Source: Asterochloris sp. CNOR1 (taxonomy: Eukaryota; Chlorophyta; Trebouxiophyceae; Trebouxiales; Trebouxiaceae). From it: 64,000 nt of DNA. Where the stretch lies: positions 62,001 to 126,000 of the forward strand of contig OZ017754.1 in the NCBI GenBank assembly GCA_963969365.1, given 5' to 3'. Below, piece by piece: positions 8,646-57,859 of this stretch; position 1 is the first letter of the stretch, and every line of letters starts with the position of its first letter. The notes under the pieces were generated by a model, which worked only from the letters and a program-made list of their open reading frames with translations, searched no databases and was not told where the DNA came from. Made by a program: the position numbers and the translations under genes.

Positions 8646-8659
8646 AGAGAGGCCCCTGC

Positions 8660-13554: not shown

Positions 13555-16500
13555 CTAAAAATCATTGTTGTCATGTCTCGCAACTAGCATCTCTTCCAGC
13601 CCGGGGGGTGGTGGCTCCTCTGCTGCAGCCAGCAGTGTCTGCACGAAGAAACAGCCTGTGTGTGGCCATGCCGAGATGCTTCTGGACCACAAACTCTGGA
13701 TTTGAGAGGCCATGCACCAGGCTGCATGAACCACATTTAAGAAGACAAGCTTGTCTTTTCCTTAAGGTAGTGCAGAGCGGGGGCTGGCATGGGCTTGCCT
13801 GAATCACCGCTTTGATGGGGGGTCTCCTGCTAGGCTTGGTGGCAGTGCATCGGTCAAAGAGGTCTGCAACTATCTCAGGACACTCAAAAGGAACCCTGCA
13901 GTCACATAAGCTGTGCTCTTGGTAACATGCAGTGCGGGACACCCGAGCAAGTTTTCACAGGGTGAACTGTCATCCGGAAGCCTTGAGCACAGGGGAACAG
14001 CATCTGCTGCCAGGGCACTGGCACGGGAGCTGCTGGCAAGTGGCCACAAGCTGCACACCAAGTCATGCACACCCATGAAACCCCTTAGTAGGTGTGCGGC
14101 TGCTGCCCTGTGTACTCCTGGACTCACTTGATGTCCCGCAGCTGGCCACGCCGCGGAGGCTCGCCGGTGAGCACCTCATGCATTGTGACCCCAAAAGAAT
14201 AGATGTCAGCCCGCGGGTCGCAGTGCTCCCCAAGGAGCATCTCAGGTGCTGCACAGAGGGTTTCACAGGGGTTGGGAAGCTGGCTGTTGAGACTGCTTGG
14301 GTGCAGACCCCCACATGCTGGGCAGAGTGCTGCAGAAGACAGCAAGACATGGGCTGCTCATGCAGTGATAAAAGGCTCAGCAACTGCGCCCTACCTGCGT
14401 ATGCGAATGTGCCAACAGCCCCCTGAAGGGTCAGGTGGGTGTTGCTGAGGACGTTTGCAAAGCCGACGTCAGCTGCAGGCAGCAGAAGCTGTGACAGGGC
14501 AGTTTGTGCTGTACATCTTGAATGGACAGCGTCAGAGGGCTTTGGCATGACACCGGGAGCCATGTAATGAAGTGTTTGCTTGTGTGTGAGGCAGGGGATA
14601 ATAATGTCAAGCGTATTGCAACAGTCTTGACTGGGTAATAGAAGCTGCTCACCAATCTTGGCAGTGCCATCACGGCCGAGAAGAACATTGGAGGACTTTC
14701 TGCAGGGCAAGGGAGGGGGTGTAATCATTCCCCAGCATCATCATCATCAGGCAGGCCAAACAGTCAATGACACCAACAGGCAGTATAACTTGATCAGCAG
14801 TGCAAAACCACAATTGCCGCTATGCACACAATGCTAAGCTCTTATGGGGCATGTGGTGGGCGCTGCATGCAGGCGCCCAAGCACAAAAGCTTGTGCTGTT
14901 GCCAGATTTTCACAGCCAGGGAAACCTACAGGGCTCTTGCCTCTGATGAGGAAGCAGGGCCCAAGGCATTGAGAGGTGCTTTGCTTACGTTTCAAAGATG
15001 CAGGAGGCACTGGTATAACTCACAGATCTAGATGCAGGATGGGCGGCCGAGACTTATGCAGCGCGTGAACGCCACGTGCAATGTCCAGTAGGATACGGTG
15101 ACCCCTGCAGCAGCAGGTGTGCAGATCAGCGCTGCCCAAAGGAACAGAGCAGCAACAACCAGACGATGCTAGCAGATGCTTGTCAAAAGAAAAGGGCAGC
15201 AAACACCTGGCGGAATCCAGGCAATGCTATCAGCGGCTGCCCAAGAGGACAGGGTAGCAAATACTGGCAGAATACAGACAAAATCCCAGCAACAGCTGCC
15301 TGCCTGGTGACTTCCCTCAATGCAGACCTAAGCAGCGGTTTGACCTGACCAGCAGGCAGGGATGCAGGTAACCTGACCAACAGGCAGGGATGCAGGAGAG
15401 GCAGCATGCTGTGCCTTGGCCTGGGGTCTGCACTTTGCAAACTCAGCAATCCTTGCCAGCTCTGAAGCCTCAAGCTGAGCAACTTGCGGAGGTCAGCAGC
15501 GCTGCTGAGTGCTGCTCACCGCTTGTACCAGGACAGCACCCCCTTCCTGTCACGCTGCATGGCCTGCCCCAGGTCGCCGTTCTCCATGAACTGCAGCATG
15601 GCAGTCAGGTGTGTGTGACTGTCAAGTTTGAACACAACTGTGCATCCAGCAGACAGTTGTCTTCACTGACCAGTCAGCCACTGGCTGCCTGTGCTGACTT
15701 GAGGCCAGTTGGGCAAAGGATCTGATGATGCCCCACCCCAACACTGAAACAGCAGATGCATGAATCCTTCAGGCCACGCAGCAGCACGCTTGCAGCCGCC
15801 TACCTCGGTCACAAGCATGACAGACTCTTGAGAAGCAGAGGCCCCATAAAACTGTACAATGTTAGGGCTCCTGCAGGGCATGGCATAGGCACTCAGCTCC
15901 TGATATAGAGGCTGCATCTGTAGGTGCTCACAGGCATTGAGGTGCAAGTGTGCATGGATTGCAAGAGGTAAAGCTCCAGCTCATGAAGCCCCTTTCAGTA
16001 TTGTGAAAGTGCTTCCGGCAGACAAAGCAAAATCAGTATTATAAATCAAATCCCCTGCCGGCCTGGAGAGAGAAGCCCAACCTGACATGCCAAGCATACC
16101 ATGCAAGCAGCTTGTGCTTACTTGCAACTCCGGAGGATGGCAACCTCTCGCATGATGCCCTTCTGCTGCCGCGCGTCTGCCACATTGTGGAAGATCTTGA
16201 CAGCCACCTCCTGCACGCCATCCCGCTGTGCCTTGAAGACTGTCCCATAAGCGCCTGCAGGGCACAAGAGCAACAATCTGATCCACAACGTGGACCACAG
16301 CCATGCGCAGTAACTCTTGACAAGGAGGAAGCTGCAGCTGGCCTTCTGTAGTTGGTGTCACTAAGAACTACTTTGCTGGATAAGGTGGCCTGGTATACAG
16401 TTAGCAATGCAACAATGGCACCAGCAGGTGCAATGTGGGGTGTGGGCCACCATCTCCCGTCTCGATGACCAGCCTGGTGCACAATGCAGAGCCGCACACA

Positions 16501-19500
16501 GCCTCCAGAGGCTCTTTCAGACCGCGAAATGAATTCTCCATGCTGGCACACAGCAATCATTGGTGGTACCAATTGGATCTGGTGCCTGACTGTCAGCATG
16601 GCAGCTTTGGGGCTAGGCGCACTTTTGTGGTGGTCCAGGCACACTGTGGCTGGCATGGCGCCCTGTGTGCCGCAATGTGCAGCAGACGCAGCTACAAAGC
16701 CCCAAAAGAGGTCAATGCCAAGCTGGTCCCAGCAACCCTGTAGCGTTATCTTTACGCACACTGCAAATCTCTGGGTCCAAGCCAGGTGCACCACAAATGT
16801 CTAAGCAGCAGCCCTTATCCGCCTGGAGAGCCTGCTGCCAACCCTTTTGCCACCTTTGCATGCAACAGCAACAAGGAAGACGGCCAGCTCAACCCCTGAG
16901 CGCAGCTTCCAATCTCGCTGTGACTGCACGTGCAGAGACTGACAGCAACCTCATTGCAGCACACCAGCAGCATGACACTGCAACCCACTTGAGAACGTCC
17001 ACCTGATCAAAGCTGCCATTGCGTATGTAGTGACTGCCGCAGGACAATGCGGATCACTTGGAGACGCCCACCTGGGCAAAGCTGCCATTGCTCATGCAGA
17101 CGTGACGGCCCTGTCGCTGAACCCTGACCCAGCAGCGGCGCCCCACCTGAGCCCAATCTCCACTGCTCGCCATTGTCCCGCTTGCAGATGACAATTTCCT
17201 CAGCTGGGATCTCCCAGTCATTCAGAGGGGACCCGTCCATCATGCCACTGATGGCCCTGCAAGCGGTCAGACGAGGATGCCTGGCACAGATGCTGGGCTG
17301 GACCTGACAGAACTAAATCTGACCTGCCATCAGCACAGCAGCTGCTGCGGCTGGTGTGTGCAGTGAGGCGCAGACATGTAACACGTGTGACCATGGCCAG
17401 ACATTGCTGCAGGAACAGGCGCAGCCAGGCCCAGGCCGAGACGTCAAGTGAAGATGACAGGACATAAGGCTTTGCTGTCTGATGCACATGCAATCATGTT
17501 GCTGAAGAGGTTGTGGCCGGGAGTCAAGTCCCCCACCTGGCAACATTGTCCTCCCAGCTCCCTCTGGTGCTGAGTACGTCATCCGAGCCACGACTGGTGC
17601 TGCTGGGGGTGCCCCCGCTGCCTCGGGGAGCCAGATTCCCTCCACGGGTGGGCAGCCCCGATCCGCGCAGTGCAGGCACGGAGACAGGCAGCGCAGCCTG
17701 TGGCGAGGGCGCCAGGAGAGCCCCCGGCTGGCTGTGGCCACTGCTGCGCTGGAAGAACTCGCTGGAGCTCGACTTGAGCGCTGGCAGGGTGACACCTGCA
17801 GGTGTTGCCTGGGGCCACCCCCTCCTGCCACCACTGCCCCCGGTGCTGCCGCCACCGCCCACCCCAGTCCCCGTTGGCGAGAAGGCAAAGGGGCTCACAG
17901 GGGTGGCCACCTCTGCCACGCTGCCCAGGGGGGTTGCGGGGCTGCCCCGCGGCTGCAGCGTCACGCTGGTGGCCGCAGACAGTGAGGCCTGCCCCTCAGA
18001 AGACCCCTTGCTTAAGACTCCTGCCAGCTGGGCGAAGCTGAGCTGGGATGAGCCCTTGCTGGAAGCGCCTGCCAGGTGGGTCAGGCTGATGGAGGTTGAT
18101 GCCGAGTCCAGGCTTGACCTGCTGGCCCTGGGAGACGGCGGCTGCCCGAACGCGGAGGCTGGCACAGCACGGGGCCCCTGCTGCCTGGGGGAGGACGGCT
18201 GCGCAAGCGCCGGCACTGGAGCGACGCCCGTGCCACCTGCGTCGCCCTGCTTCAGGGAGGAAGGCGGATGCACAGATGCCGGTGGTGCAGCGGCATCCCC
18301 GCTGCCCCAATTAGGTTTATGGGTTTTGTTATCTTGTTGGTCCTCTGGGGACTGCAGGTGGGCAGCGCCACTCCACGCGCTGCTGCCGCGGTGCTCGCTG
18401 GAGGACGTGTCTGTGGTGCCCCCCCACGATCCCCCCGGGAGCCCAGCGTCCTGGAAGGCATTGGGCGCCTCCCTGCCACGACCGCTGCCTGTGCTCTGCC
18501 GCGTGCCACGCAGGGGTCGGGCATCCCCAGAATCGTCCCTGTGCACATTGGCAGAGTCCTGTCCAGCTGGGCGCAGCGGCTCAGGGGTGCTGCCGCGGCG
18601 CGCTGGCGGCCGCTGCTCCCTGCTCCCCCTGCCCGGGGTGGGATCCCGCACCGCCGCCTCTACTGGGCCTGCCACCTCTGAGCTGCTGCCGCGGCGCGCT
18701 GGCGGCTGCTGCTCCCTGCTCCCCCTGCATGCTGGCTCTGGGGCGGCGGCCAGCTCTGGGTTGCTGCGCTTTCGGGTGGGCTGGGGGGAGGCCCGGGCCC
18801 AGGTGCCCAGGCTGGGCTCGGGGCCAGAGGCGCCGATCAGCTCTCCTAGGGGCGCCTGCGCCTGCACGGGGGGCGGGGCCCGCTCCGAGCCGCTGCTGTG
18901 CCGCGGCAGCTGGGCCTGCCGGGCTGCTGTGGGGCTGAGGGGCGCTGCTGCAGCCTGGTCTGCAGACGCCCTGCTCCTCGGAGCCTGCACACATGGCCAC
19001 ATGCAACCTGGGGGGACCACCAGCCGGTGATGCCAGAAAGCAAGTCAGCTGGAGGAGCATGATTCAGGATCTGCCTGCCAGTGAGGCTGCAGCAACCTGT
19101 TGACACAGTGGGGGAGGGGGAAGTTTCAGAATTTGGCACATGAAGGCGTCCTTGCAAGAGATGTTGAGTCATGATCCCAGCAAACAGGGTTCAGGGCCCC
19201 ACATCGGCCCCACATCTGCCGCCCTGATAGCAAGGCCACTGCGGTGCTCAGGTCTGTAACAACCCTTGGCAGCACCCTCTTCGTCAAATAAACTTTGTGA
19301 AACCTGGGGGTTGGCAGATGTTGGAACCCCCCGTTCCAGCTCTAGCAGCGCACTGTGAATACAGCTCAGGCCGGTCCCACATCCCATGAGCCTGCCTTTG
19401 CCGTTGGCAGGGGGCTCCTGCGATTCAACGGGTCTGGCCGCTCGCCCTGCTGAGGGTTGAGTGTGTGGTTGCCAGCGCCATCCTGGGAGCCAGGTACCCT

Positions 19501-19924
19501 CGCATAGTGCATCTTGTCACTGTCGCCGTCACGCAACTCTCGCGCCTTGGCCTCGCCGCCTGCATGTGACACACTGGTCTCAGCCCAAGGCCTATCCTCT
19601 TGCGGCTAACCTCTGCTGTGACCACCATGCGGTTCCCACGCCTTGGCCTCAATGCCTGCAAGCGACACAAAGGTTTCAGCTCAATGTGTGTGCTCCTTGT
19701 TTTTCCCTTTTCTGGGGACACAGCTGTCTGTGTGACGCTGCACAGCTTTGCTTGCTGCCAGTCTGTGTGCTGGTCAGCGGCACAAGCAGGCTGGGGGCTG
19801 CCTGCCCAGTCTCAGGAAGTGGCTTACCATGGGCCATGGCTTGGCCAGAGTGCCAGGTCTCCTGCTCATCAGCTCGGTAGTGTGACTCCCGCTTTGGCTT
19901 GCTGCTAAAGATGTTCCCGCACAT
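13555..19924 (-). CDS. TKL/Raf-like protein kinase with long disordered N-terminal region
   Basis: Thirteen phase-consistent exons give 870 aa: 19828-19924, 19381-19559, 17537-18984, 17147-17256, 16122-16254, 15804-15870, 15520-15590, 15024-15104, 14653-14699, 14395-14472, 14128-14248, 13799-13895 and 13555-13638. The start MCGNIFSS (ATG at 19924) has a Cys at position 2. Residues about 95-575 form one GC-rich Ser/Pro/Ala-rich exon. The kinase domain spans roughly 590-845: Gly loop LGSGAYGTVFKAQ, Lys in EVAVKIF, alpha-C Glu in IMREVAIL, catalytic loop HLDLKSSNVLL, ADVGFA in place of DFG, and APEMLLGEHCDPRADIYSFG. It is predicted to phosphorylate Ser/Thr, substrate unknown. HLD in place of HRD suggests no Arg-dependent activation-loop control. 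The last intron has a GC donor (13793-13798). Residual array DNA and untranslated sequence fill 13251-13554. Confidence 0.9.
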
Positions 19925-20285: not shown

Positions 20286-20649
20286 ATGTGGATCATGCCC
20301 CTTTGGTTAGTGATTCACCTGCTGTTCAGCGTATGGCACGCCCAGTGAGTATGTGGGAGCGAATGACAAACATCTGACATGAGCTTCGAGCTCAGCTTCC
20401 AGGCTGCCTGGATGGGCTGATATCTGCGTGAGCAGTTGCTCCAGCTCTGCTCCGTTGTGGTTTCGAGTGCTGGAAACACCTCCAGGCAGCAAGGGGCCCG
20501 TGGGGCTGCAAAGAGAGCTGAGCTGTCAGGTAGGAACGAGCGCCTATCTTCTTTTTCATCATTGCTCCAAACAGAGTACAAAGGCCTGATATCGATCAGC
20601 CCAAGCAACAGCTTGTGTGTCCTGCCAGCAGGCGGACAGGGCAGGCGCT

Positions 20650-22604: not shown

Positions 22605-25600
22605 TCAGGCACCTGCTGCACAGGCGGCTTTACCTGGTCCGGGGGCAGGGCTTCTGCCTGCCAGGCTGCCCTTGGCGTGTGGCCTGTGCATCATGTGCCG
22701 CAGTGGCCCCAGCACTGGCACCAAGCGCCTCAGGAAGGGCACCCAGTCCACCTGTAGGTAGACAGCAAGAGCCTCCCTGACATTTGCTGTGCCAGAAGCC
22801 GGCGTGTTGTTGCCTCCTGAGTTGCACTCAGGCTCTTCTGCAGACAGTGAGCCCTGTGCAGAATGCCAGTGTGTTCCAGAACACCTTTGTGCAGACCTGC
22901 AGTGTGCCTTTGCGGTGTGTTGCAGCAGCGGGCAGCACCTCAGCAGCCTCCACACCCCCGAGCTACCTGCTGCATAGTCGCACAGCCGGCACAGCCACCA
23001 CCCCTGCCTCCTCGCAGCGCTTCCCTTCAGTCCTGCAACCTGCTATTGCACCCGCTGTCCGCCAGACAGCGTGACCCGGCTGCAGCCCCAGCGCACACTG
23101 CAATGCCTGACACCTGCCAACAGATCTTTACGACACTCCTGTTAAGCCCTGCGCGAGTGTCCTGTGGGCCAGCGGGGGTTTTTTTCACTTTGTTTGCTCA
23201 ACTGCCAGCCCCAGAGCACAATGCTGTTTGCTTGGGGATGCGGCACTGAAACCCACCCACAGCTGCCTGGGAGCGTCCTCGTCTCGTCCTGCAGCACGCT
23301 GCCCCAGGGCCTTGGCTGCCTTGATGCGCTGGATCAGGTCGGCGTGCTGTGCAAGGGCGCTGCGCCTGAGCTGCCGCGCCCCGTGCAGGCGCAGCAGGTT
23401 GACCGCAGTGCAGCAGGTGGACCCGCCGAAGAGGATGACGGCCACGATGGGGACAATGGCCCTGCAGCTCATGAGTTTGTGTCAGAGCAGGCTGCCACAT
23501 TCAGCATGATACAATTTATGCCTCTGTCTGCCTGGCAAACTGCTGTGCTGCTGCTCAGTGCACTTCCACTTTACGGCAAACGCATCCAGCCACATTTTGC
23601 CTCAAATTGCGTGGTGGACATACCTCAAGGACGAGTCCTTGGAATTGGATTAATGGTCAGGAGGCTGTTCGGCTCTGCGGCAGTGCCCCTTCACTACACA
23701 GCTACATTCAGAACAGCTGAAGTCCAGGAACGTGTGTGGGACTGGCCTATCCAGCACCTTTTGCTTCAAGAGGTGCTGTCAAATGAACCCTGCACTTGCC
23801 TGTGGCGGTCATTGATCCAGTGGAGGGTGCTCAGCAGCACAGCCAGCGTGGCCACCCAAGTGCTGAAGCCCACCAGGGAGAAGATGCCCATCTCAGCAAC
23901 AATGAAGTCAGCGTTGCCCGTCTGCAGAAGCCTGTCCAGACCTGCAGCAGAGCAGGTGGCCACTACAACACTGGTGTGGGGCTTGCCTGTGTGTGCAGGG
24001 GCTGCTAAGGGAGGGGTTTGACTGCTGCACATGAGGGCCTGACTGTGTCTGCAGCAGCCAATCTGGGGCCTGGCAAGGGATGCAGCGGCCATGAGGCTGG
24101 CAGACAGGCCACCTTGCAACAGCGCATGAGCAGCAGTGCCCAGCTGCCAGCAAACACAGCTGCAGCAGCTGTTGTTGTACCACATGAAGCAAAACATCCA
24201 TACATGTCAGCCACATGTAGTAGATGGAGCCTTATCACATGCGCTTGCTGGCCTGGCAGGCTGCCTGAAAGCAGGTCCCAGCCTGACGCATATCCTTCAG
24301 GCCCTGTAGCAGCAGCCTACCCAAGTCCAGAAACTGCAAAAGCTGGCCACTCACAGCTGTACGAGAAGTTCTCGTACACCCAGACGATGTCCTCCTCTGC
24401 TGGCGACAGCTTCAGGAGGCTGATGCTCTTGCCTGTCAAAGGGTCCACAGCAGGTTCCCCTCTGCAAGACACCCTCTGCACCACTGAGTAGCCGGCCAGG
24501 GCCGATCTGACGACACCACACAGTCCCCTGCTGAGCTGGCAGGTATGCTTGGGCGTTAGCTCCTGTGGCCGATGCACAGGCGAAGGATGAGCTGTGGTTT
24601 CGTGCAATGCTGTGCAGAGTACGCAAGCTGGGGAGGCAGCCATGCCCATGTCAGCCACTGGAGGCCGTGCAGGCGCAGCACACGGCACTGCTGGAGACCC
24701 ACAGCTGGTGGGCAGCGATGCCTTTAGAGATGCACTCGGAGAGCTCCTTGCGCTTGATGGGGAACCTGCAAGCCGGGCACACGATGCATGTGCGCAACGC
24801 CCTGCTTTACAAAACATGAGCGGAGCTGTGTTGGCCACAAGCAGCCCGGGTACTCATGGCAAATTTGCAAGCTTGACCACAGCCTGGAAAATGGCAGCAC
24901 ACTTGCGAAGAATGAGGGCGCATCAATCATCGCAAGGCGTGAACAGCAGCCGGTCTGCTAGCTGCTGCAGTACAGGGCTGCACCTCACCTTGACTTGACC
25001 AGGAAACTGCAGATGGCGCACAGGAAGGGCAGGATGACAAAGGTGAAGCGGATGAAGGCCTGCAGAGAGCGACATGCAGGCCAGGCTGTTGACTTCTCAT
25101 ACCCAGGAAGTTGCAGATGGCACACAGGACGTGCAAAATGACAAAGGCGAAGTGATTGATGACCAGGCCTGAGCACAGCTGCAGGCAGGCCAGGCGGCTG
25201 AGTGCTCCATGTGGGTTGCAGCCTGTGGCCTGCACTGCAGTCGAGGCGTGACAGGCACCATTCTGTGACAGGTTGGTGGCACATGGCTCCTGTGCAGGGG
25301 CGGTGGCCGCATATGGCCACGTTTGTTGTTGCCACCGCGCTGCCTTCTTTCAGCAATCCAACACGGGGCAAAGCAGCAGGGCTGCTGGCTCACCTTCACG
25401 CTGAAGCTCTGCTCCTGGGCCACACCAGAGACAGGCGGCACAAAGCCGATGAGGTTGATGAAGGCCAGGGGCAAGGCGGAGGCTGGAATGCTCACAAACT
25501 TGGGAATCAATGTAGCAAATACGCTGCAGGGAAGCACACACCCGGCTTGACATGGCTGGACCTGGAGACTGCAAAATGCTCCCGGGGCGCTTGAGAGGCT

Positions 25601-36480: not shown

Positions 36481-36524
36481 CGCATGACGTGCTAAGTGCT
36501 GCAGCGGTTTGGTTTGGGCGCAGC

Positions 36525-41455: not shown

Positions 41456-44400
41456 TTATAGAAGGACCAGGCCAACACCAGAAGGCTCGATGTCCTTGCC
41501 CAGGACTCGCCAATTGTACAGATAGTAGCGCAGCTTGCCGTCCCCAATGCCAAATTTGAGCTCCTTCATGAAACTGGTGTTATCAAAAATGTCCAGCGCA
41601 TTAAAGACATCGTGGTCCCTGTGAGCAAACATGCAGGCTCAGCTAGACTGGCATGAAGACTCAATGTGCGCAGCCGCAATGATGGACAAGTCGGCCGCCA
41701 TGGCATAACACAAGCGGAAGCAGCCGCAATGACCAACAGGCCGACCTCCATGACAGAAGACAAATTACAGCAGGCATCCAGGCTCATGCATAGGGAGGGC
41801 CGCACCAGCAGCACAGCTCTGGCATCAGGGACTGCGGGAGGACTGCGTGACCAACATGCTGGCACCCACAAGCTGCACCACACAGTCTGCCATATGCAGC
41901 AAGACTGGCTTCCCACCCTTTGGCCCTTGGCAAGGCAGGACACGCCAGCCACCACACAAATCAACAAAGAAATGGCCTGCACCAACAACAATGCCCCAGG
42001 GTGACTTACGATTTCTTGGCCAGGATGAGGGCGTCCTGCATGAGTTTGTTCAGGGGGGTCTCGGTGGCCACTGTGTAGTACATATAGGCGGCTGTCAGGG
42101 TGTCATACTTTTCGTTGCCGATCACCGTGGAGGGCAGCGTGTAGAAGCTCAGAAGATCGGTGATGATGCCTCCTGCAGCAGTGTGGAGCAGAAGCATTGA
42201 CTGTGGTGCCTGTCATGATGATGGGGTTCAGCGTGTAGAAGCTCAGCAGGCTGGTGATGATGCTGCTCCCTGCAGCAGGGCGAAGCAAGCAGGTTGCAGC
42301 AGTGCATAGGGCAGCGTGGATGCCCCTGCCAAGCGTGTGCTCCACAAAACTCAGGGCTGCACAGAACACATGAGACCCAGTTACTCCACCAGGCAGAGAG
42401 GCCTCCAAATGGCTTCTGTAAGCTGTCAAGCAGCAGCACAGCAGCTGAGAGCAACGCAAGGCCAGCTGGCAGCCCTACCTGCCTACCCAGGTAGAGCGCA
42501 GAGCCCCTTCCAACTACCAAACAGCCCCAGCTGCGCTTCGACCTCCAAGTCAAGCAGCCTCTGGGCAGCCATTGCCAGCTTCCACCCTGCTGGCAACATC
42601 CCCCCACACTCACAGAGTCTTTCAACAGACGGGCTGCCACAAGGCTGGGACTCTGGCTGACCAGCAGGCCCATGCGCACGCTAGACCACAATGGCACACC
42701 TGGTGCAGAATGACTGTTCTGCCTGTCATCACACACAAAAAGGACAGCCACCTGCCACTGCCTGACCAACAGCCCACAGGTAGCAGGCAGTCCCCTGCAC
42801 CCTTGACCAAGAAAGCCCTACCTGCACTCTCTACCACAAAGGCTGATACCACCCCTGGCCGGCTCATCAGATAGTGCTCCACCTCCTCCTCTGTGAAAAC
42901 AGGGGCCAGCCCAAACCTGCCCAGGTAGGTGCTCAGCAGCTGCGTTACCTGCAGGCCATGGGACTTGTGGATTAGAGGCCAGCATGCCTCGCGAAGTTGG
43001 CAGCTCAACAATCTGTAGGGGCATCAAATCTGCTAGGAAAGGGCTGGTGTGAAGTTGGTAGGCCTCATGAACGCCGGGCCAGAACAGCTTTGCCCTGGTG
43101 GTTGCTCAGCAGCTGTGTCACCTGCAGGCAGAGAACACAAGGCAGGACAACAGGGATCTGCATGATCAAGGGCTCCTCTCACAGACATGTCTTGGCATGG
43201 TGGGGGTGTCTCCTGCAGGGGACGGGCAGTCATGACTCACAGGCAATGGAAGCTTGCAGCAGCTTCGTGTGCCACAAGGGCAGGAAGCACCATGGTGGTG
43301 GCATGGCCCGTGAGCAACGGGCCCAGCAGCTGCGTGCGCTGAAGGAGCCGAGCAATGGGCTCAGCAGTCGCCTGGCCGCACAAAGAGGGGCCAGTTTCGA
43401 AGTCATGTGCACACAGCCCCTCAGCAGCCGGGAGAGCACTGTGGTCGTGCCATCATTCGACCGTGCACAAATTGCGGGGGGAGACTGGAATCTGGTGATG
43501 CAGTGCAGTGCAGCAGCAAGCTGGTGTCCACGATGCACTGCTGCAGGCGGCGCATCAGCTTGGCATGGATGCTGCGCATGGGCGAACTTGCCTGGGCAGT
43601 GTCTCGCCTCTCCAGTGCCCGTATGCCTGGCGTCAGCGGCTCATCTGGCAGCTTGTACAGCTTCAGCGTCCGTGCCATTGTCATCCGAGACTGCAGGCGG
43701 CCAGGCAGGAGATGAACAGTCTGCAGCCATACCCTTGCAGATGAGGCTGCTAATGGGTGCAAAACGGGGGCAGCATGCTGACGTTAGGTCTGGCCTGTGC
43801 ACCCTGAAGCGGCTGTCATGGAGCTGTCAGCACTCGGCCAGTACTGCACTGGCTCCAATAGCCCCTCTGACAATGCAGTCTGCTTCAGCAGTGCGTCGAT
43901 GAGGAACCAACAACATGCCACATCAAGGGGTATGCTGAACAGCAGTCACATGACATGCTGCAAGCTGTGCTGACCTGCAGGCGCGAGAAGCCCACTGAGA
44001 TGAGCTTCTTGGGGTTCAGGGACCTGTGCCAGTACTGGGTGACGGCCACAGGTTTTGGCAGCACCACTCCTGCAGTGTAAGCTGCCTGCCAGATGTCATT
44101 GGCATTCACTCGCCGCGTGATCTCCTGCAGCGCACCAGCACAGGCATGTGAGGTGGGTCAGTTGGCATCGCCACTCAGACTGATGGGGGTGGCATGGTGC
44201 AAGATCCAGATGCATGGCAGGAGTCTGCACGGATCGCTTGCATGCCAGCTGGGATCAGGACAGACTGCTCGCTGCCCAGCTAAGCAGTTGCAACGAACAG
44301 GCAGCAGCACTGTAGGGGAGGCACATGGCTGGCTCCCAGTACAACAACCCTGCTCTTGGCCAGGGGTGGCCAGCCTGAGGAGGGCACCAGCCACGTGCAC

Positions 44401-47474: not shown

Positions 47475-50451
47475 ATGGTGGGCCACTTTCGGTCTTGTCC
47501 TGGCACTTTGACCCGTCCGGTTGATCGACGGCGCCGATGGGTTGGTGCTGCTCCTAGCATGCGACCTCGCAATGGTCGCAAGACCATACAGAAGCTTGCC
47601 AGGGGGCAAAAGCTGGATTGTGTTGGACAGCAGCTGCCCCCAGGCAAGCCAGATGACCTCTGTCTGTCAGATATGGTGCCGGTTGCTTCATCCTGCAAGC
47701 CAACAACGGCTAAAGCTGCAGAGGATGGTGCAGCCAGCAAAGAGGCGGCACCTCCACCATCGTGGGGCAGCAAGCGCCTGTACTGGGTGGATGAGTGCCC
47801 TTCAGTCCTGCAGTACAACAAGAATGTCAGATCAGGCTACAGAGCAGGTGAGCTCGGCCGTGCTGGCGCGCTTTGACTAGCAGAAGTGCCAAACCCATCA
47901 ATGCCTCACCATGCCTCTGCGCTGCAGGTCTGTCGCCAAAACAGTGCATCTGCAGCGTTGCCCAGTACCATAACGAGACAGGTGAGGCAGTGCCAACAGA
48001 AGCCCAGCAAGCCAGCAGGTTGGCCCCCTTCCAGGGCACACTCCGCATTGGGTTTCCCACGAATGCTTTGAATCTGGGGTGCATCAGCAGCCTGCCTGCT
48101 CTTTGCCGTTCCAGCACCAACGCAAGCTTGTGTCAGCTGCTGCGAGTCCTGCATGCCCTGCCTGTTGTCATGGCCCCTGCTTCATACGCACCATGCCTGC
48201 ATCATCCTAGCTGATCCATCCACAGGTGCACCTCCTGCCGTGCATCCAGCCTGCTCATGGTCCCACCTTCCGTTTCTTCCAAGCACTTATTCAACCATTC
48301 CCACAATGTCCAGCACAGCCCACAGAAGGGCTCCTGTGCACTCCCCTGCAGGCAACATCTGGGCCCACCTTCTGCCCATTCTGGCAATCCTGCTGGCTCT
48401 GTACTTCAACGCTCTGCGCATGTGGCCCAAGGCTCCGGTTGCGTTCCTAGAGAATCTGGTGCCCATCCTGCTGTGCCTCAGCGGCTCGGTGATGTACCAC
48501 TCCATGATGGCCCACCACTGGCACTACAAGAAGTTTCTGGCCTGCGATGTGAGTACCTGCATCCAGCCCTGGGCTGCAGCATGGGGCTTTGCATTTTGAG
48601 TCTGGTTAGATAGGGTGCATGCAACACGCCCTCAGCCTTTACTTATTATGTGGTGTGAGCTCTTTCCTGGTCTGTAGTGTGAGCTCGTTCCTGGTCTGTG
48701 GTGTGAGCTCACTCCTGGTCTGTGGTGTGAGCGGCTGCCTGCAGCGTGCCATGCAGTCTGCGGCGCTGTGTGGACCTAATTAAAGGTTCGTCCAGACCTG
48801 AAGCTGGGTGCCTTCACCCCCCTTTCCAGCTGCAGCCTGCTACTTGTGGGAGTTGTGCGCCTGGCAGCGACAGTCTAGGCATCCTCAAAAGCCACTGGTA
48901 GCTTGTCACACAGCTGGCAGCTCTGCAGTGTGTGCAGCTGGCCGCAGTGTTGCTGGCCAGCCCACAGGCAATGTGGTAGCTAGCTCATGGGTAGCAGCAT
49001 GGGTTCACAGCTGACCAGCCTTTGCTTGTATGTGTCAGTCATGTATCAGTAATGGCAGCACCAATTCGCATTTGAGCAGACATCAACTGCCTGCCCTGTA
49101 CAGTAGGGCGACGTGTCAGACTGCGCCTACTGTCAGTGCAGTGGTGTCCACCTGCTGCGCTGCAAACAGCTCGAGCGCCAGTCATGCATAGCAGCAACAA
49201 GCTGAAGTCGTGACACGCGTGACCAGAACAGATAGTGAAGCTACCTTGCAGCTGTAAAGGAAGGCACACACCAGGAGGTTGGCGATTTGCAGGGTGGAGA
49301 CAAGGGCACAGCTGCAAGGGTCAGAGCCAGCTACAATGTTTGTTGCTGATGACGCCAAGAAACAGCTGTGCAGCAATGCTGGTGAACCCAGGTGTGGGTT
49401 CAGGATGTTGTGTCTGCAGGTCTCCACAGCCTCTTCTGCTCTGCCTGCAGGTCTGTGGCATTTTTCTTCTCATGCTGTCGGGGATGCATCCCTGCCTGTG
49501 GTGGGGCATGCACGAGCATCCCCACGCCCGCATGTTCTTCATAGTCTCCTATTACCTGGCAGCCGCCGCGTGCGCTACCGCGGGCGTGGCAGCCACCAAC
49601 AAGACAGCACGCGCAGTGCCACTGCTGGTGCTCCTTCTGGTGCGCCTGGGAGCCATCCTTGTGCGCTGGGCCTGGGACCTTGGCTGCCAGGCAGCAGTGA
49701 TGCAGTATCTGGCCATGGAGGTGGGTTGACATGGCCTTCACTTTCCCCTTGCTGGAGACAGGCACTCCCCTTCCATGGGCAGGGGCCTCGTCATTGGCCA
49801 CGCTTGCCACCGCCACCTCCCTGGGCTTGCCCAATGAGAGCCGAGCTGGTGGCAGGCAGCAGCGGGCTCACTGCTTGCCCAGCAGGCACCTGTCTGTAAG
49901 GGCGGTGATGCGGTACCCGGACATGAACGTGGGTTATGGTGGCTATAGATTGCCAGGAGGGCCCTGTACATGGTGAAGACCATGGGCAGTGCTCCAGCAC
50001 ATCGTCGTGGAGTCTGGTGCGGATGCTTTCACAGCGCCGTGCGCATGTGCTGCAGTTTTGGTCGGGACAGGTGGTTGCTCGACACTGCCATGATGCATAG
50101 AGCCCTGAATGTGCTGGTGGGCTGGTGCCAGGCGCACTGGTGCTTGCTGTTTAGCCAAGTGTGATGCGCAGCAGCTGCAAGCAGATCCAGCTGTCAGCTG
50201 GAGGCTGCAGCCTGCTCTACCTTCACGCCTCCCTGCAGGTTCTGTCTGCAAGCGGCGCCATCATCAATGTGCTGCGCATTCCGGAGAAGTGGTTCTGCAG
50301 CCCTCACCCACGCAAGGCTGGGCCTTTCGACTACTGGCTGAACTCCCACCAGATCATGCATATTCTGGTGGTGTGGGCTATCTGGCACTACCACAGGGGC
50401 GCCTGTCTGGACTATGCCCACCACTTCGGTCCCATCTCGGCATCAGTGTAA
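47475..50451 (+). CDS. PAQR / adiponectin-receptor-like (HlyIII family) 7-TM protein
   Basis: Five exons, 47475-47847, 47928-47981, 48352-48548, 49451-49720 and 50239-50451, join in phase to 368 aa. An N-terminal cytosolic part (about 115 residues, basic) leads to VLQYNKNVRSGYRAG, the usual PAQR entry motif. Seven membrane segments follow, starting at NETGNIWAHLLPILAILL. The family's presumed metal ligands are visible: Ser and His in SGSVMYHSMMAHH, Asp in LACD at an exon end, and the paired His of LNSHQIMHILVVW near the C-terminus. Family members act as zinc-dependent hydrolases of lipid amides or as receptors. Which applies here is unknown, as is the membrane (plasma membrane or Golgi). It is complete, with no broken motif. 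About 300 bases separate its stop from the convergent cytochrome b5 gene. Confidence 0.93.
48650..48734. repeat. 24-bp tandem repeat, 3.5 copies, PAQR intron
   Basis: The unit gtggtgtgagctcnttcctg plus gtct repeats at 24-base spacing from about 48650 (next 48674, 48698, then partial 48722). Each unit contains gtgtgagct, a donor-like string. It starts about 100 bases after the true donor of exon 48352-48548. Confidence 0.85.
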
Positions 50452-51125: not shown

Positions 51126-51948
51126 CTTCACCTTCCTATGGCGTTCCTGTCAGGGATCCTGGCCCCGCGAGGCCACGAGATGGTCGACTTTGACCAGCCA
51201 AGAAGGAGGAAGAATCTGTTTTGATGGCACACATTGATGGCTCAATCTGTAGCTAGCATTGGTGTTCATGAGCCGAGACGTAAGCCCAGGGGCTCAGCAC
51301 ATTTCAGACAGACAGGCAATGCCATGGGCATTCCAGCTTTGCATGGCCGGCGTCCCAGCTGCTTGCTGTTGTCATAGCTCATGCTGCTGGCCACAGCTGC
51401 AAATGGATGTGCAAGAGGTACAGCTCTGCTGCGCACCAGATCACCTCACCGGGCCAGAAGCTAAACGGAACCATCTTGACAGGGCTGCACTCTCACTGTG
51501 AGCGCCTGAGCAGGGTGGCGCTATTGCATCTGTAGCATCACCTGGGCGTGAAGGCTGCTGGCTGCCTGCTAGCCTGCCCACTGACTTGCTGGGCTGATGC
51601 CGGGCCCAGCTGGCCACCTGCTGACGCGCCGCTGCTGGGCCATATCCTGCACACATCATCATAAGATGGTGCTGAAAGATACTCCACTCTGCCCATCGCT
51701 GGCCCCATCTCTAGCTCACAGTGAACCATTGGCGTTTTGCGCAAGACAGGATGACATGCTGAAGAGCAACCCTTACGGGCAGCACTTGCAGCCCCCATCA
51801 AGCACAGACAATGCATGAGGGTCAGCTGTCCAGTTGCGGTCCGCAGGGTCAGCTGTCAGCCGGAAATGCGCGCGGTCAGCTTCATGCGGTAGTCTGTGTG
51901 GTCACTTGTCAATGTACACACTGAATGGAGGTGCACTGCACATCGTTC
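51126..51948. other. Intergenic, no gene recognised
   Basis: This separates the cytochrome b5 gene from the small unknown gene, both on the minus strand. Open frames are short and unlike proteins. It probably holds the b5 promoter and the upstream gene's 3' untranslated region. Confidence 0.55.
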
Positions 51949-52670
51949 TCAGCCATTGACCGCGGGGCAGGGCAGCACGAACTGCACTCCCTGCCTCCCC
52001 AAGGCGCCTACCTGATCCAGCGAGACAGCCCCGCTCAGCTGCGGCCGACTGGCTGCCAAGCGTGACAGGCCTGGCATTTGGGTTGAGGTCCCTGCACAGC
52101 AACGTGCTGCCGCTGACACTGGTCTGTAAAGGTCCTTCATGCCTGCCAGGCCCTACCTGCATGCATACTTTCATGAAGGGGGCCCCACCCCCAGCCTGCA
52201 TGCTGCAATGCCTGAGCATCTGATAAAGTTTAAGAGGGAGAATTTGAGCCTTGCTAACTGGGCTGGCAGCCATTCCCTGCACTGCCAGGCAGGAGGGTTC
52301 CCTCAAACCTGCCATGGTCCAGCAGGTCCACATATAAGCTGGCTGCTCGGCAATCATGCTGGGTCGCATGACACGCCCCAGCGACAGTGCGTGACAGTGC
52401 TGGGCATGGGCGAGGCTCACCTGCGCCGCTGCCTAGCAGGGGCGGGCCCCCAAACATGCTGGGCTCCAGCAGGTCCAGGCTGAAGTTGATGGGGCCATCG
52501 TGGTGGCTGTGCAGGGGTTGGCTGATGATGGTTTCCAGCACAGTGGACAGCTTGTCCCCCTTCCTCTTCTTCTGCGGCAGTTGACGGTCACTTGTGGGGC
52601 ACACAGGCGCACCAGGCTTGTTGCAGGCAGCAGTAGCAGCTGGACCAGCCCCACCATTCTGTGTTGACAT
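51949..52670 (-). CDS. Small unknown protein with NLS-like motif
   Basis: Two exons in phase: 52421-52670 (ATG at 52670) and 51949-52091, the latter ending in TGA, for about 130 aa. The N-terminus is Ala/Gly/Asn-rich. A basic cluster, LPQKKRKGDK, looks like a nuclear localisation signal. It is followed by LSTVLETIISQPL, NFSLDLLEPSMFGGPPLL and then SRLAASRPQLSGAVSLDQ. I recognise no family. Low complexity and the NLS suggest a small nuclear regulator, but this is only an inference. The region 52671-52987 upstream is unassigned. Confidence 0.5.
52274..52345 (-). pseudogene. Diverged duplicate of the 3' end of exon 52421-52670
   Basis: The copy reads LYVDLLDHGRFEGTLLPGSA, against FSLDLLEPSMFGGPPLLGSG in the exon. 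It lies in the following intron, so here the decayed copy is downstream of the working exon rather than upstream. Confidence 0.6.
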
Positions 52671-52987
52671 GAGATCTGTTGTGTAACGGGCCTGTGTCAG
52701 CCTCAAGGGTACTGCAGGTGAGAGGCTGGTCCTGCTGGCCGCGTGTTGTGGCCTTAGCATGACTCTGCATGATGCTGGGCTTAATGCAGCGGCAACGCTC
52801 CACAGGCCAGCACGAGGCTGACCCTGACATGCAGGTCAGCTTTCCAGAAGAGGACATGCCCCTACACTGCCACTGACGGATGCTCTGGTTGGCAACATGC
52901 AGGGGTTTGTGCTGCTTGCAAGGACACCAGCCGCAGGTGGGGACAGCTGCTGTATGCATCAGCAGATGGTGCAGCAAGTGGGGCCCG

Positions 52988-55900
52988 TCAGAGAATGCAG
53001 GGGATGGTGTCGTTCTCGAGCACAGGCAGTTTCTTTTCTTGGTGAAGCTCTTGCGCTTGGGAGTCTTGCTGCATGCAAAGACAGCTGCTGGTTGCAAAGC
53101 ATAGCATAGGTAACACTTGTAGTTACCCAAGAATTATAGGATCTATACCGATCCTCAGCGCATTGCACCCAACTCACGTCCCCTGTAGCAAACATGCTTG
53201 AAGCAAAGCTGATTTTGCTTCCTACGGAGCCAAGTGCGACATGGTGTGACAAGTGCGTCATGCAGGACAATGCCAGTCACCTTTTGCTTGGGCTCGGGTG
53301 GCACCACCAGGTCCCCAATCTCGCCAACACTGTTCGGGGGCAGGGCGGCTATCTGCTGGGCAACAGTGGGCGCGGCAGCATCAGCATCCTGCACAGGTGA
53401 CGTGTTTTATCTGACGCTTGAATTGAGGTCTGAAAGAGAAGCTGTGCGGGCTTGGGTCATGCAGGTAAACAATGCAGGCTTCCTTGCATTGTTGGAAAAG
53501 TTTTGCATGCACCCTTTGTTGGGGCATGGCCATCTTTTGGTGAGCTGCTGTGAAGCAGTGCTGTGAAGAAGTGCTGTGCCTCTTACAGGTGGCTTTCATC
53601 ATCAACTTCCACGGACAGGGGCAGGCTGGCTGCCCGTGGCAGCATCAGAGACTGGCCTTGTAAAAGCCTTGCAGGAGCAGTCATGCTGCCGGCTACCTCC
53701 AGCAGACAACACTCCCTGGCCCACCTGGCTGTCTGCCTCTGCCCCTGTGCTGTGATCGGCCTTGTGCCGGGCCATGCGGGCCCATAAAGCCCACTTTCCC
53801 TTCCTGGCGCGTGGTGCTGCAGCAGCTGATGGCGAGGCTGGATCATTGACCTCTGCAACCACGGGGGCCTCCTGCAGGGGTGGACCTGCACACACATGCA
53901 ACTCCTTGGCAGCTGCTGGGCCACAGGTTTGAAGGTTGCTGCAGCATGCTGCATGTGCCTGACGCCTAAGCCCCCCGCCCTGCCTGCTTGCCCAAAAGGT
54001 AGCCTTGCAAGGTTCCTGGCTTCTTGCCGTGACGGCATGGCATGCAGGCGCTGATGGTGATTTCTTGGAGCCATCAGAATGCAACCACCAGAGGGTGCAT
54101 GCTGATGCCAAGAGGCTGCACTTGCCTGTTTCTGGCTGTGCACCATCTGCAGCCTGCGCAGCACCAGCTACAGCGTGACCAGGTGTGCAGCTGCTCACCT
54201 GCAGCCTCCTGATGATGTTGTGCAGCTGCCCACCTGCAGCCTCCTTAGCACGATTGGCAGCCTGCCCAGCATCAGCAGCTGCCGCCTCTGCAGCGTGCTG
54301 CGCTCTGGCTGATGCCAGGATCCTCTGGGCCAGCGACCCCTGCTCCAGACCTCCCCCGGCAGCTCCACCAGCCCTGCGCTTTGCAAAGGCGCTACGCAGT
54401 CGAGCAGTGGCCTGTGCCATAGCTTCCTCCTCACTGAGCTGCTGCGCGCCTGCAGCCAGAAAGCAGCTGTGCTCAGACATGCAGGCTGAGGCTTCAAGCA
54501 AGCCTGGGCCACAGCTGCCGCTTTGAAGAGCTGCAGCGTGCCTGACATGCAGATGAGGTCCCAGGCAAGCCTGAGCCATAGCTGCCTCCTTGAAGAGCTG
54601 CTGCACGCCTGCAGCGAGGAACCAGCTATGCTCATACATGCAGTGTGCGGCATAGGCAAGCCTGGGCCATAGCTGCTGCTTCCCAGAGCTGCTGTTTGCA
54701 TGGCAAGCTGATGTCCCAGGCAAGCCTGCCGCCTACAGAGCTGCTGTGCACCTGCAGGCTGGACCGCACACACCCACTCCTGCTCCAGGAGCCAGTGCAG
54801 GAGGTCACCTGTTCAATCAGGGCAGGTGCTGCTGGTCCAGCACTGCTCCTGGGCAGCAGTCCACTGCGGGACATATAAAAGCAAAGCTGCTTGCAGAGGA
54901 ACATGGCAGAAAGTCCATGCGCATGTGCCATGCCTTGCTGCGCAATGACTGCACACTTCGTTGCACAAAGTGCCAGTCTCACCAGCTGATTCAGCTTTCA
55001 CCGAGGCAAGAACACCTCCTCCTGAGGCAACCCCTGCATTGCTTGGCTGTGCCTGAGCGTGCTCATCAATTTGTTGGCTTAGAGCGAGCTGCCCATCTAC
55101 TGCTGCACCTGCCTCCTCTAAATCTGATGCGGAGCCTCCATCTGACTCTGAATCTGAATCTGAATCTGACTCTGAACCTGATGCAGTGCTTGACCCGGCA
55201 CTTGAGCTGGACCCTGAGGTGGCACCAGAGCTTGAGCTTGCCCCTGAGGTTGAATGTGTGCCAGCAGGTGGCTGCCTGGCCTGGGCTGGTGTTGGCAGCG
55301 GCGGCACCTCCCCAGCATGCTGCATGGCCAGGGCTGCACCCTTTGCAGTGAATACGGCAGTGTCAGCCTGCAGCATGGTGGGTGTCTGTGCTGGCACCTC
55401 ACTGATGGCCGGCAGTGGCTGAGAGGAGACTGCAGCTGTCCCGGGCGCAGCAGCAGGTGCCCCTGCAGCAATTTGCTGGGATGTCATGGGGCCAAGCACG
55501 GTGGTCGCTTGTGCTGGCAGGCCCTGCAAAACTGCTCCAGCTGGCCAGGGTGCAGCAGCAGACGCCCCTGCAGCAGCCTGTTGGCCTGTCGTTGCCTGCT
55601 GGGGGCCAGGCATGGTGGGCGCTGGTGCTGGCAGGCCCTGCAAGAGAGCTGCTTTTGGCACAGCTGCCGACAGCAGGCCTGCTGCAGCTTTCTGGGAACT
55701 GACTGGTGCTGGCGAGGCCGGAGGTGACGAAAGCGGCACCACGCTGGACTGGCGGCTGAGTGGGCTGCGCCCCTTCACTTTTTGAACCATGCCCGACAAG
55801 AACCTCCCCAAGGACGATTGGCGTCCAGGGGACTCCTGTTGCGCTGCCTGGCTGCCGCTGCTGCACTGGGTGTGCTCCGATAAGGCACCTCCGGCTAAGT

Positions 55901-57859
55901 CCGTGCCAGGCCTGTCCTGAAGGGGGTCGAGGTCCCGCAGCGGCGATGGCAGTGTCTTCAGTTGGCCCTGCCCGCCCAGGAGCTGCTGCCGCATGCCAGT
56001 GCCTGGCGTGTTGACCACGAGCCGCTCCTGTGGAGTCCCCAGCCGCAGCAAGGGAGAGCTGGTGGGTGGCAACTGCTGCAGGTTCGTACCCCAGTAAGGG
56101 ACCTGCACCGCCACCCTCGGCAAACCCTGCGGCCACAGGTGCTGCAGGCCTGGCGGGCTGCCCTGCTGCTCCTTCTTCTTCTCCTGCAAGCTGGCCAGCC
56201 TCTGCAGCTCATCAGGCAGCAGACTGCGGCTGGGCCGCGCAGACAGGGCGCTGCGAGGCTGCTGCAGGGGCAGGCTGTGCGAGGCATGGTGGCGGGGCAT
56301 CGCTGCATTGGGGCTGTGCTGGTGCCCAGCCTGGGACTGCTGCAAGCTCCTGCTGAGCTCCTGCAGTGCAGAGCAGGAGTCCATGTGATGTGTTTAAGCC
56401 TGCAGGGCAGGGCAGGGGTTCATATGGTGTGTTTACGCCTGCGTGCAGTTGGGCAACTGCACACTGCAGTGACCAGCTGCTGACTCTGTATCACAGGCCG
56501 CAAGTATTGTCTTCAGCATGTTGCCCGCAAGGCTCCTTGCTGTTGGAACTGAAGGCTGTGAGGCACTCTTGGCACTGGAAGCTATGAGGTGCTCTGGTTT
56601 GTGAAGTGCAGCAAGGTGCACTTTGAGTGCAGTGTGTTGCAGTGCGAAGCAGGCACTCACTGGAGGAGCCGACCAACATCTTGTTGCTGCAGTCACACAA
56701 GCAATCCCCCCACCTGCCAGGCAGGTTGCCCCTGAGCAAGCTGGGACTCCGCTCCCGCCACATCATGCAGCCTGCCTCCAGGTGCAGGCTGAACTGCACT
56801 GTGACCCCAGCCGCTGTGCGTGGCCTGCCCAAAACGGCGCAGGGCAGCCACCTGCTCTGCCACACACACATCTGCCGCCCTCCGCAGGTCCTGGGCTGCC
56901 TTCTGCTGGCACGCCGCCAGCTGCTGCTGCTCCACCAGCAGTGCTCTGAGCTGCTGCAGTTCCTGATCCTGGGCTGCAGAGGTAGCGATGACTGCGACGG
57001 CCCCATCCAGCCACTCCGCTGCCCTCTCTGCAGCCTCATGAGGCGCCCCCAGGCTGCCTACCTGAGGCACGCCCGCCCCTTGCGACAGCTGGGCAGCTGC
57101 AGACTGCCTCTGTGCTGGTGCTGTACCAGCCTGTGGCAGGCCATGTCTGGTGGCAATACTGCCTACTGCAAGCCTGTCAGGGCGACTGTAGGGCTGTTGC
57201 CTCCACACCTCAGCTGCACCAATCAGGGGAGACCTCGCCGGCTGCACAGACCCCATGTTGACGGAGGCAGACGAACCTCTAGGACCGGCCTCCCCAGCAC
57301 CTCTCAGCCTGCCTGATGCGGGAGCGCCAGCATCAGCCCAGCGCTGCTCGCTTGGCCCCAGCTCCAGGGCGTTCTGCTGTGCATGGCCTGTGAGCAGCTT
57401 CTGTTGGGGGCTAGACTGAGGAAGCTGCCTGACATCAGGCGCAGTGGACCCTGGCGATAAGCTCCGCCTCTCTGCCTGGCGCTGAGCCGCCTCCCTGAAT
57501 TGATGAAACGTACTGCTTGCTCTGAGGGGCCCAGGTCCAGGCTGAGGCTGGCAGCTGGCTGCACTCCGCATGGCATCAGATTCCTGCAGCTGCAGGCTGC
57601 CAGAGGGCCTGAACAGCAGCTGTGGTGATGCCAGGCTGCTGCTCTGCGGCTGCAGGAGGGTGGCGCCGCTGCCAGATGAGCCCCCCAGGCCTGGCACCCC
57701 ATGCTGAAGCAGGGTATTGCAACTTGCTGGGGAGGTAAAGTCATCAGCGAAATGGCTGCTGCCCTGGAGGGTCTGCAGGTGCCACACAGCAAAGCAGGCT
57801 GCCAGCAGGCGCCACCTGCGGCGCAGGCAGGGGAGTTTTCTGGTGGCAGGCTGCTGCAT
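52988..57859 (-). CDS. Large low-complexity (Ser/Gln/Pro/Ala-rich) protein, unknown
   Basis: Terminal exons join in phase: 54983-56360, 54234-54449, 53725-53885, 53281-53388 and 52988-53068 (TGA). An upstream exon (about 56820-57859) holds another long open frame; its start and its junction to 56360 are unresolved. The protein is over 900 aa and mostly disordered, with a poly-Ser/Asp/Glu tract (SESDSDSDSESDGGS) and helical stretches (EEEAMAQATARLRSAFAKRR, DQELQQLRALLVEQQQLAAC). The C-terminus is EKKLPVLENDTIPCIL. It looks like a nuclear scaffold or chromatin protein. The acidic-serine run resembles BET-type tails, but I see no bromodomain or NET domain. I recognise no family. Confidence 0.65.
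54450..54770 (-). repeat. Array of decayed copies of exon 54234-54449 (5' end)
   Basis: The intron before that exon contains at least three degenerate copies of its start. The working exon reads cagcagctcagtgaggagg then gctatggcacaggc. Copies near 54540-54610, 54480-54540 and 54660-54770 keep cagcagctcttcaaggagg, gctatggctcaggcttgcct or close variants, several with a CTGCAG before them. Copy spacing is roughly 100 bases. Confidence 0.8.

Follow-up and report, generated by a model that had tools for sequence, protein, structure and literature searches.

The introns of a 64-kb stretch of the genome of the green alga Asterochloris sp. CNOR1 (contig OZ017754.1; G000:C9:62001-126000; referred to as the window) raise the question why they carry partial, diverged copies of the exon edges next to them. 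A sequence-only reading of the window had attributed such copies mainly to short tandem duplications spanning an acceptor and the start of its exon, one copy of which then decays. Analysis of 324 kb from the 56.38-Mb genome (21 contigs) shows that these copies (here termed relics) are local, lie in direct orientation and occur beside acceptors and donors alike; they are probably fossils of short tandem duplications across splice sites, of which purifying selection keeps the copy in use. The phenomenon is general in the sampled genome, ordinary as a process and new in its form.

Sampled DNA and gene prediction

The sampled DNA comprises the window, eighteen 10-kb stretches (one per contig C1–C18), 20 kb of C1 and 60 kb of C5; joining of neighbouring stretches yielded 21 places. 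The 60 kb of C5 served as fresh test data, for which the gene model was frozen beforehand. Exon and intron calls were supplied by a gene finder, whose training set was the first 264 kb and whose only outside data were starting splice words; it converged on the donor CAG/GT and the acceptor TGCAG/G (the slash marks the junction). Exons scoring ≥5 and introns ≤1,500 bp were counted. Pfam names seven of eight window proteins tested: an MFS_2 transporter, a protein kinase, a DnaJ (J-protein), an N-myristoyltransferase (NMT; both domains), an HlyIII/PAQR protein, a cytochrome b5 and an acyl-ACP thioesterase. The eighth protein (62–64 kb) has no Pfam hit.

Copies of exon edges in adjacent introns

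Each exon boundary of the window (≤70 exon bases plus 12 intron bases) was compared with its own intron and with 200 dinucleotide shuffles per boundary, resulting in a floor of p = 0.005. This floor was reached by 14 of 136 usable boundaries (0.7 expected), and p ≤ 0.05 by 24 (6.8 expected), bearing out the basic claim that part of an adjacent exon edge recurs, in diverged form, within introns. The floor cases comprise seven acceptor edges with upstream copies and seven donor edges with downstream copies. They belong to the transporter (2), the J-protein (2; one acceptor and one donor side), the PAQR-like gene (1), the gene at 36.5–41.3 kb (1), the thioesterase (1), the low-complexity gene model (4, two of which are the edges of one coding repeat at 55.4–55.6 kb), an exon 5' of the kinase (1) and the NMT gene (one clear case at 43.1 kb and one of only 16 bases at 46.7 kb). 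Of the genes named, without coordinates per case, in the sequence-only reading, the transporter (twice), the J-protein, NMT (twice), the low-complexity gene with its array and the 36.5–41.3 kb gene show copies here as well; the kinase case is weak, the donor end of its exon 17,147–17,256 lying outside the 34 best boundaries of the window test, with the likeness visible in the alignment only.

Local repeats are almost exclusively direct. Self-comparison of the window yielded 25 direct repeat pairs with an offset below 200 bp and no inverted one; local repeats below 400 bp number 131 direct vs 3 inverted in the first 264 kb and 158 vs 3 in the 324 kb, compared to 4 direct and 3 inverted in one dinucleotide shuffle per place (first 20 places). 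Self-palindromes, to which 18 inverted hits below 100 bp in the fresh 60 kb belong, each pairing with itself, are excluded from these counts. Among the 147 local pairs within 600 bp in the 264 kb, 71 match an exon or exon boundary with an intron, a 1.8-fold excess over a circular-shift null (39.7 ± 5.9) that reached this count in 0 of 300 shifts. The remaining pairs are intron–intron (38; null 49.1), exon–exon (11; null 22.0) or involve intergenic DNA (27; null 36.2). With the window left out, the exon-vs-intron excess persists (55 vs a null of 29.0), and in the fresh 60 kb of C5 15 such pairs were found (null 7.6 ± 2.4; P 0.004). Thus, the excess over random introns, on the lack of which the sequence-only reading would have been given up, holds in the 324 kb sampled. 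The ratio of observed pairs to null is roughly constant across identity bins (1.76, 1.88 and 1.72), as a model of longer survival predicts. A first survivorship test, in which the excess was expected among low-identity pairs, is discarded for faulty logic: longer survival predicts a constant factor, which was realised only after the result.

Searches with exon-only queries (≥32 bits, 264 kb) gave 33 matches in adjacent introns (16 upstream, 17 downstream) compared to a single match in the reversed (minus-strand) control, and none in introns of the same place that lie within 2 kb without being adjacent, despite the larger search space. This bit-score version replaced a looser exon-to-intron search with a threshold far too low (101 direct vs 64 reversed adjacent matches). 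Genome-wide search of three relic loci, including those of the transporter (24,999) and the J-protein (33,409), returned only the loci themselves in 56.4 Mb, where absence of a match does not prove rarity. For these three loci, introners or transposons, of which many dispersed copies would be expected, are therefore not indicated.

Relics are present in 61 of 395 introns, spread over 16 of the 21 places. Their frequency is 1/89 in introns below 200 bp, 13/141 at 200–400 bp, 31/113 at 400–700 bp and 16/52 in longer ones, and the median intron length is 516 with and 312 without relic. Introns lengthened by duplication would produce such a trend, as would the larger target that a long intron offers. 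The aligned blocks are short (quartiles 34/47/64 bases), i.e., at the lower end of the 40–110 bases initially proposed.

Position of the copies relative to the splice sites

The 86 exon-vs-intron pairs of the 324 kb follow a simple side rule: 34 copies lie upstream and span the acceptor, 35 lie downstream and span the donor, 17 are internal to the exon, and none is on the wrong side. In the first 264 kb, the 71 pairs divide into 27 upstream/acceptor, 27 downstream/donor and 17 internal ones, upstream copies never spanning a donor and downstream copies never an acceptor. All 15 pairs of the held-out 60 kb (seven upstream-acceptor, eight downstream-donor, from 13 exon edges) obey the same rule. 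The earlier impression that most copies lie just upstream is thus not upheld at any scale, neither among the floor cases (7 vs 7), nor among the exon-only matches (16 vs 17), nor among all pairs (34 vs 35). If copying were local and random, at unchanged lengths and offsets, about 10 % of copies would be on the wrong side and 62 % internal. The rule is partly geometry: an intron was present at the mirrored place for only 23 of the 69 spanning pairs. The counts of spanning pairs are also generous, because alignments tend to extend into the splice word common to both copies; when ≥10 bases are demanded on each side of the junction, 40 of 86 pairs span.

The best cases contain one boundary and 11–70 exon bases (43 of 52) or no boundary at all (9 of 52). 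Tandem exon duplication and mutually exclusive exons are rejected on these grounds: copying of a whole exon is not the rule, and constraint on both coding copies is lacking. As a separate observation, a 423-column tandem duplication (81 %) at L012:6183-6987 has acceptor and donor in both copies and is a possible whole-exon duplication, an exception to the partial-edge pattern.

Decay of the copies and retention of splice words

By codon position, exon and relic differ at 168/964, 145/973 and 216/970 sites (0.174/0.149/0.223), and the exonic part has 23 gaps, 21 of which are not multiples of three; the exon looks constrained, and the relic looks devoid of coding constraint. In fixed windows at 67 junction pairs, identity is 0.71 on the exon side (50 bp) and 0.53 on the intron side (8–50 bp), with mean z values of 6.1 vs 1.9; intron flanks exceed z = 2 in 25 of the 67.

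Splice words are often retained. Among the 19 best acceptor cases aligned over enough columns, 12 have an unbroken TGCAG motif (one more seems unbroken in one alignment and is interrupted by an insertion in another), in agreement with the earlier remark that the CTGCAG acceptor is often kept. Weight matrices place 21 of 33 relic acceptors and 14 of 34 relic donors at or above the lowest tenth of working sites, the corresponding figures for random sites in introns being 9.6 % (AGs) and 5.9 %, respectively. CTGCAG columns are kept in 125 of 142 cases vs ~0.80 in neighbouring columns (insertions in the relic uncounted), which is not read as selection, because alignment is required there. The distance between relic and working site shows no frame preference (19/51 divisible by three; acceptors 12/26, donors 7/25). 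Independently of this, ~13 % of the called donors in the 264-kb sample have C at the second intron base; an exon with such a GC donor, ending at L024:289 (CAG/GCAAGC), has two relics, both of which retain GC.

Outside support that the exon-proximal copies are the real ones comes from one gene, NMT, of which the finder's model had taken two relics as exons. Compared to its best solved match, chain 9ndp_NA of NMT2 (which we take to be the human protein), the model carries 14 inserted residues where the first relic, at 43.1 kb, was called as a 42-base exon, and residues 422–442, corresponding to the second relic at 42.2 kb, lie between the two domains aligned to NMT2. A third insertion of eight residues, i.e., the called 24-base exon 44,970–44,993, is absent from NMT2 and is taken as a finder error. 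Since it had been called as an exon, the 42.2 kb relic was outside the boundary test and was seen in the pair search, the alignment and the NMT2 comparison.

Probable tandem duplication across splice sites

The proposed origin of the relics would start with head-to-tail duplication of a stretch of roughly 70–300 bp straddling a splice site. If the acceptor is straddled (intron tail and exon start), the upstream copy would land in the intron and the downstream copy stay in use; if the donor is straddled (exon end and intron head), the downstream copy would land in the intron and the upstream copy stay in use. Since a working copy is retained on either side, the mRNA need not change, while the intron would gain one unit. 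The intronic copy would then decay as non-coding DNA, presumably neutrally. Because the used copy is under purifying selection, exon–intron pairs would be recognisable for longer than intron–intron pairs, so that exon relics stand out. Judging from published work on other organisms, the molecular cause may be break repair with fill-in, or slippage. Orientation, locality, the side rule and arrays of relics agree with tandem duplication followed by decay as initially suggested; its restriction mainly to acceptors has to be abandoned, since donor-spanning downstream copies are equally common.

Relics also occur in arrays. An intron of L017 contains three relics, each of CTGCAG plus ~35 bases from the start of the following exon; the acceptors are spaced by 84, 92 and 139. 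At L020/L021, three relics lie downstream of an exon end and its donor, spaced by 152, 146 and 132 (a period of ~145 bp), and parts of the intron flank are repeated as well.

Several observations weigh against this origin. Even when the relics of the L017 array are compared with one another, visual inspection suggests stronger preservation of the exon-derived part than of the intron flank, a difference not expected from plain neutral decay. Within the BLAST alignments, intron flanks differ as much as exon parts (240/1343 = 0.179 vs 529/2907 = 0.182), whereas greater divergence would be expected between two unconstrained copies; trimming of the alignments may conceal a difference. A stricter side-by-side test of the 44 best cases gave intron-side z > 2.5 for only two acceptor cases (of 17), no donor case (of 18) and two internal ones (of 9). 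Residual homology of the spacer was detected in 32 of 117 short-block pairs (8 of 117 in the control), i.e., mostly none. Some young pairs have long spacers; one of them (7,269–7,310 / 7,486–7,527; 42 bp, 90 %, 175-bp spacer) does not look tandem. Furthermore, the pairs are not fully independent, the first 71 forming 52 clusters in the best-per-exon listing, and the gene finder fuses neighbouring genes, its models being built from sequence without RNA support.

Two simulations, a simple tandem version and one with indels and BLAST detection, reproduced neither the block lengths nor the full exon share. The median ratio of block to offset is 0.39 observed vs 0.64–0.94 simulated. For this comparison the 147 pairs were condensed to 93 events. 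The exon–intron share of exon–intron plus intron–intron events was 0.44 without constraint and 0.56–0.57 with exon constraint, compared to 49/68 = 0.72 observed, and exon–exon events make up 0.108 vs ≤0.027 simulated, a value depending on the chosen acceptance rate. Going by these models, survival bias accounts for part of the exon excess and not for all of it. Short blocks and exon excess may stem from extensive decay by indels, from insertions at a later time, from a share of non-tandem copying or from exons called in error.

Alternative explanations

Local templated insertion, i.e., break repair copying a nearby segment by strand annealing and pasting it at a distance without ever forming a tandem unit, would explain the many spacers without clear homology (residual in 32/117), the blocks filling a median of 0.39 of the offset and the young pairs with spacers of 134–184 bp, and proximal duplications of this kind are described for human (Pace et al. 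2009, PMC2671141). Such insertion should, however, ignore splice geometry, with ~10 % of copies on the wrong side and 62 % internal to the exon (observed 0/86 and 17/86), and should also yield inverted copies, which account for only 3 of 161; at least one array, moreover, has an even period. On balance, it is an unlikely general origin of the relics. The expectation on splice geometry and orientation was derived in this analysis and is not a published criterion.

Slightly more doubtful is a duplication machinery targeted to splice sites via shared CTGCAG/CAGG words, transcription-linked breaks or an RNA template. Intron–intron (44/174) and intergenic (22/174) repeats are also common, which argues for a process not specific to exons, and false exon calls could inflate the exon–intron share. 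That this share (49/68) exceeds the simulated 0.57 would be in line with targeting, as would the near-invariance of TGCAG at called acceptors and the frequency of CAG/G at donors, with which words, however, the finder was seeded.

The relics could also be functional, as alternative or poison exons or as decoy splice sites regulating the gene. With 21/33 acceptors and 14/34 donors scoring like working sites (random 9.6 % and 5.9 %) and CTGCAG columns somewhat better kept (125/142 vs ~0.80), such a role would not lack suitable sites. Codon positions and frame-breaking gaps give no indication of coding constraint, distances divisible by three are not preferred (19/51), and the kept splice words are partly a consequence of requiring alignment there; a functional role as the general explanation is quite improbable.

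Mimicry by shared splice words, low complexity or finder errors is hardly credible and is ruled out for the pattern overall, for even though exons were called without RNA and two NMT relics plus a 24-base stretch missing from NMT2 were taken as exons, matches are almost absent from the inverted, shuffled and non-adjacent controls, the side rule recurs in the held-out block, and Pfam and PDB comparisons back the exons of the named genes; single weak cases, e.g., the kinase pair, may be chance.

Relation to known duplications

The sequence-only reading did not know the pattern as a described one, which may hold for its two-sided form and not for its components. Schimmel et al. (2021, PMC8355091), whose introduction also cites work on natural insertions in humans and plants, describe short tandem duplications at DNA breaks as the most frequent short (<100 bp) insertions of the human genome. 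Like the relics, these duplications are small, local and direct and would put a copy beside its source; judging from the sections considered, they are mostly <100 bp and fresh, whereas the relics have offsets mostly of 70–300 bp, are old and are noticed via the working exon edge.

The repair-mediated duplications of Pace et al. (2009, PMC2671141), who cite the earlier "doublets" of Thomas et al. 2004, are likewise proximal and include exons and splice sites. In the parts of that study considered, copies lying within 50 bp were excluded as tandem, an exon copy in opposite orientation is described, and partial exon/intron sequences account for 4 of 824 proximal donors, whereas the copies reported here are direct and ordered by splice side. 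Exonize (PMC12343006) also catalogues exon-to-intron matches and names degenerate exons; across 20 eukaryotes, genes with partial, inter-boundary or intronic events are described to outnumber those with full-exon ones. It is a tool paper, in the examined parts of which the side rule, the retention of splice sites and the survival argument were not found.

Tandem duplication is, according to the parts of the literature considered, an accepted route of intron gain (Gao and Lynch 2009, cited in PMC4974935). It shares with the relics the duplication within genes and the use of splice words, but makes a new intron between exon copies, whereas here an existing intron gains a spare splice junction. 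Among the four pairs with a junction in both copies no case of such gain was found: three pair like with like, and in the fourth (window 55,430–55,643) acceptor and donor are 33 and 51 bases from the block starts. This fourth locus is a 105-bp coding repeat of the low-complexity gene with a called 123-bp intron across both copies; this intron may be spurious or may have originated by duplication. Two-sided splice-junction relics, their frequency in an alga and the survival argument were not found among titles and abstract openings of the mainly open-access literature.

Relic-bearing loci of the window and further repeats

The individual cases of the window are compiled in Table 1.

Table 1 Working exon edges and their intronic relics in the window (positions within the 64-kb stretch)
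Gene and working edge	Relic	Span	Strand	Alignment and remarks
Transporter (MFS_2), acceptor and exon start 24,999–25,098	upstream, 25,103–25,207	24999..25207	-	76 % over 105 columns; offset 104; z 21; no other genome match
Transporter, exon end and donor 29,221–29,279	downstream, 29,002–29,060	29002..29279	-	83 % over 60 columns; z 23
J-protein, acceptor and exon start 33,522–33,601	upstream, 33,409–33,490	33409..33601	+	79 % over 82 columns; z 19; no other genome match
J-protein, exon end and donor 33,213–33,252	downstream, 33,360–33,399	33213..33399	+	75 % over 40 columns; z 5.6
NMT, acceptor and exon start 42,918–42,956	upstream, 43,091–43,129	42918..43129	-	87 % over 39 columns; z 14.6; CTGCAG/G kept
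NMT, acceptor and exon start 42,135–42,190	upstream, 42,229–42,287	42135..42287	-	83 % over 59 columns; CTGCAG/G kept
PAQR-like gene, exon end and donor 49,694–49,727	downstream, 49,902–49,935	49694..49935	+	79 % over 34 columns; z 5.0
36.5–41.3 kb gene, exon-end segment 38,452–38,477	downstream, 38,274–38,299	38274..38477	-	92 % over 26 columns; z 11.7; block stops short of junction
Low-complexity gene, acceptor and exon start	upstream copies, tandem periods 67 and 159	54410..54728	-	80 % over 164 columns; z 13.7
Same merged low-complexity model, exon end 52,429–52,477	downstream, 52,282–52,330	52282..52477	-	76 % over 49 columns; z 7.5
Kinase, exon end and CAG/GTG donor 17,120–17,195	two weak downstream copies, 17,043–17,112 and 16,974–17,043	16974..17195	-	three-way alignment, shared GCA.TGG and CAGGTGG
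Exon 5' of kinase, acceptor and exon start 19,543–19,588	upstream, 19,639–19,684	19543..19684	-	80 % over 46 columns; z 7.6
Acyl-ACP thioesterase, exon end and donor 853–887	downstream, 620–653	620..887	-	80 % over 35 columns; z 6.7; outside 13,555–57,859

In the transporter gene, an array with a 47-bp period (29,034–29,210) overlaps the downstream relic and sits between relic and exon end. The two kinase copies (16,974–17,112) resemble each other (75 % over 64 columns).

Two further repeat features were noted in the window. Positions 8340–13230 form a zone of degenerate nested local and longer-range repeats, with 14 relatives (69–86 %) on other contigs, nine of them in C17:155–165 kb. The gene at 62025–63911 (+ strand), with six short, even introns (72–87 nt in the model), belongs to a multi-copy element with at least 44 matches on 15 contigs, 38 of which (own copy included) are near full length at 86–100 % identity, introns included; the genome search scored 40 of 132 candidates, so that these counts are lower bounds. 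The encoded protein has no Pfam hit at 0.001 (best NDC10_II, E 0.15), and the element is a putative tyrosine-recombinase (Crypton-type) element.

Implications

One may speculate that duplication across splice sites acts as a steady ratchet of the lineage, by which introns lengthen in unit steps and are stocked with spare strong sites, the choice among homologous sites drifting or being regulated; we regard this as rather improbable. If true, the better-kept CTGCAG core and the exon share above simulation would reflect splice-site targeting, or use of the spare sites.

For annotation, the relics are a warning, since automatic gene models can adopt them as exons, as happened twice in NMT. If the sample is typical, a duplication that crossed the intron's own splice site can still be read in about 15 % of the introns, the exon serving as a preserved reference. 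From such records one could measure, within a single genome, how fast short tandem duplications arise, how splice sites decay neutrally and how introns grow, and splice-site choice among homologous decoys would become directly testable.

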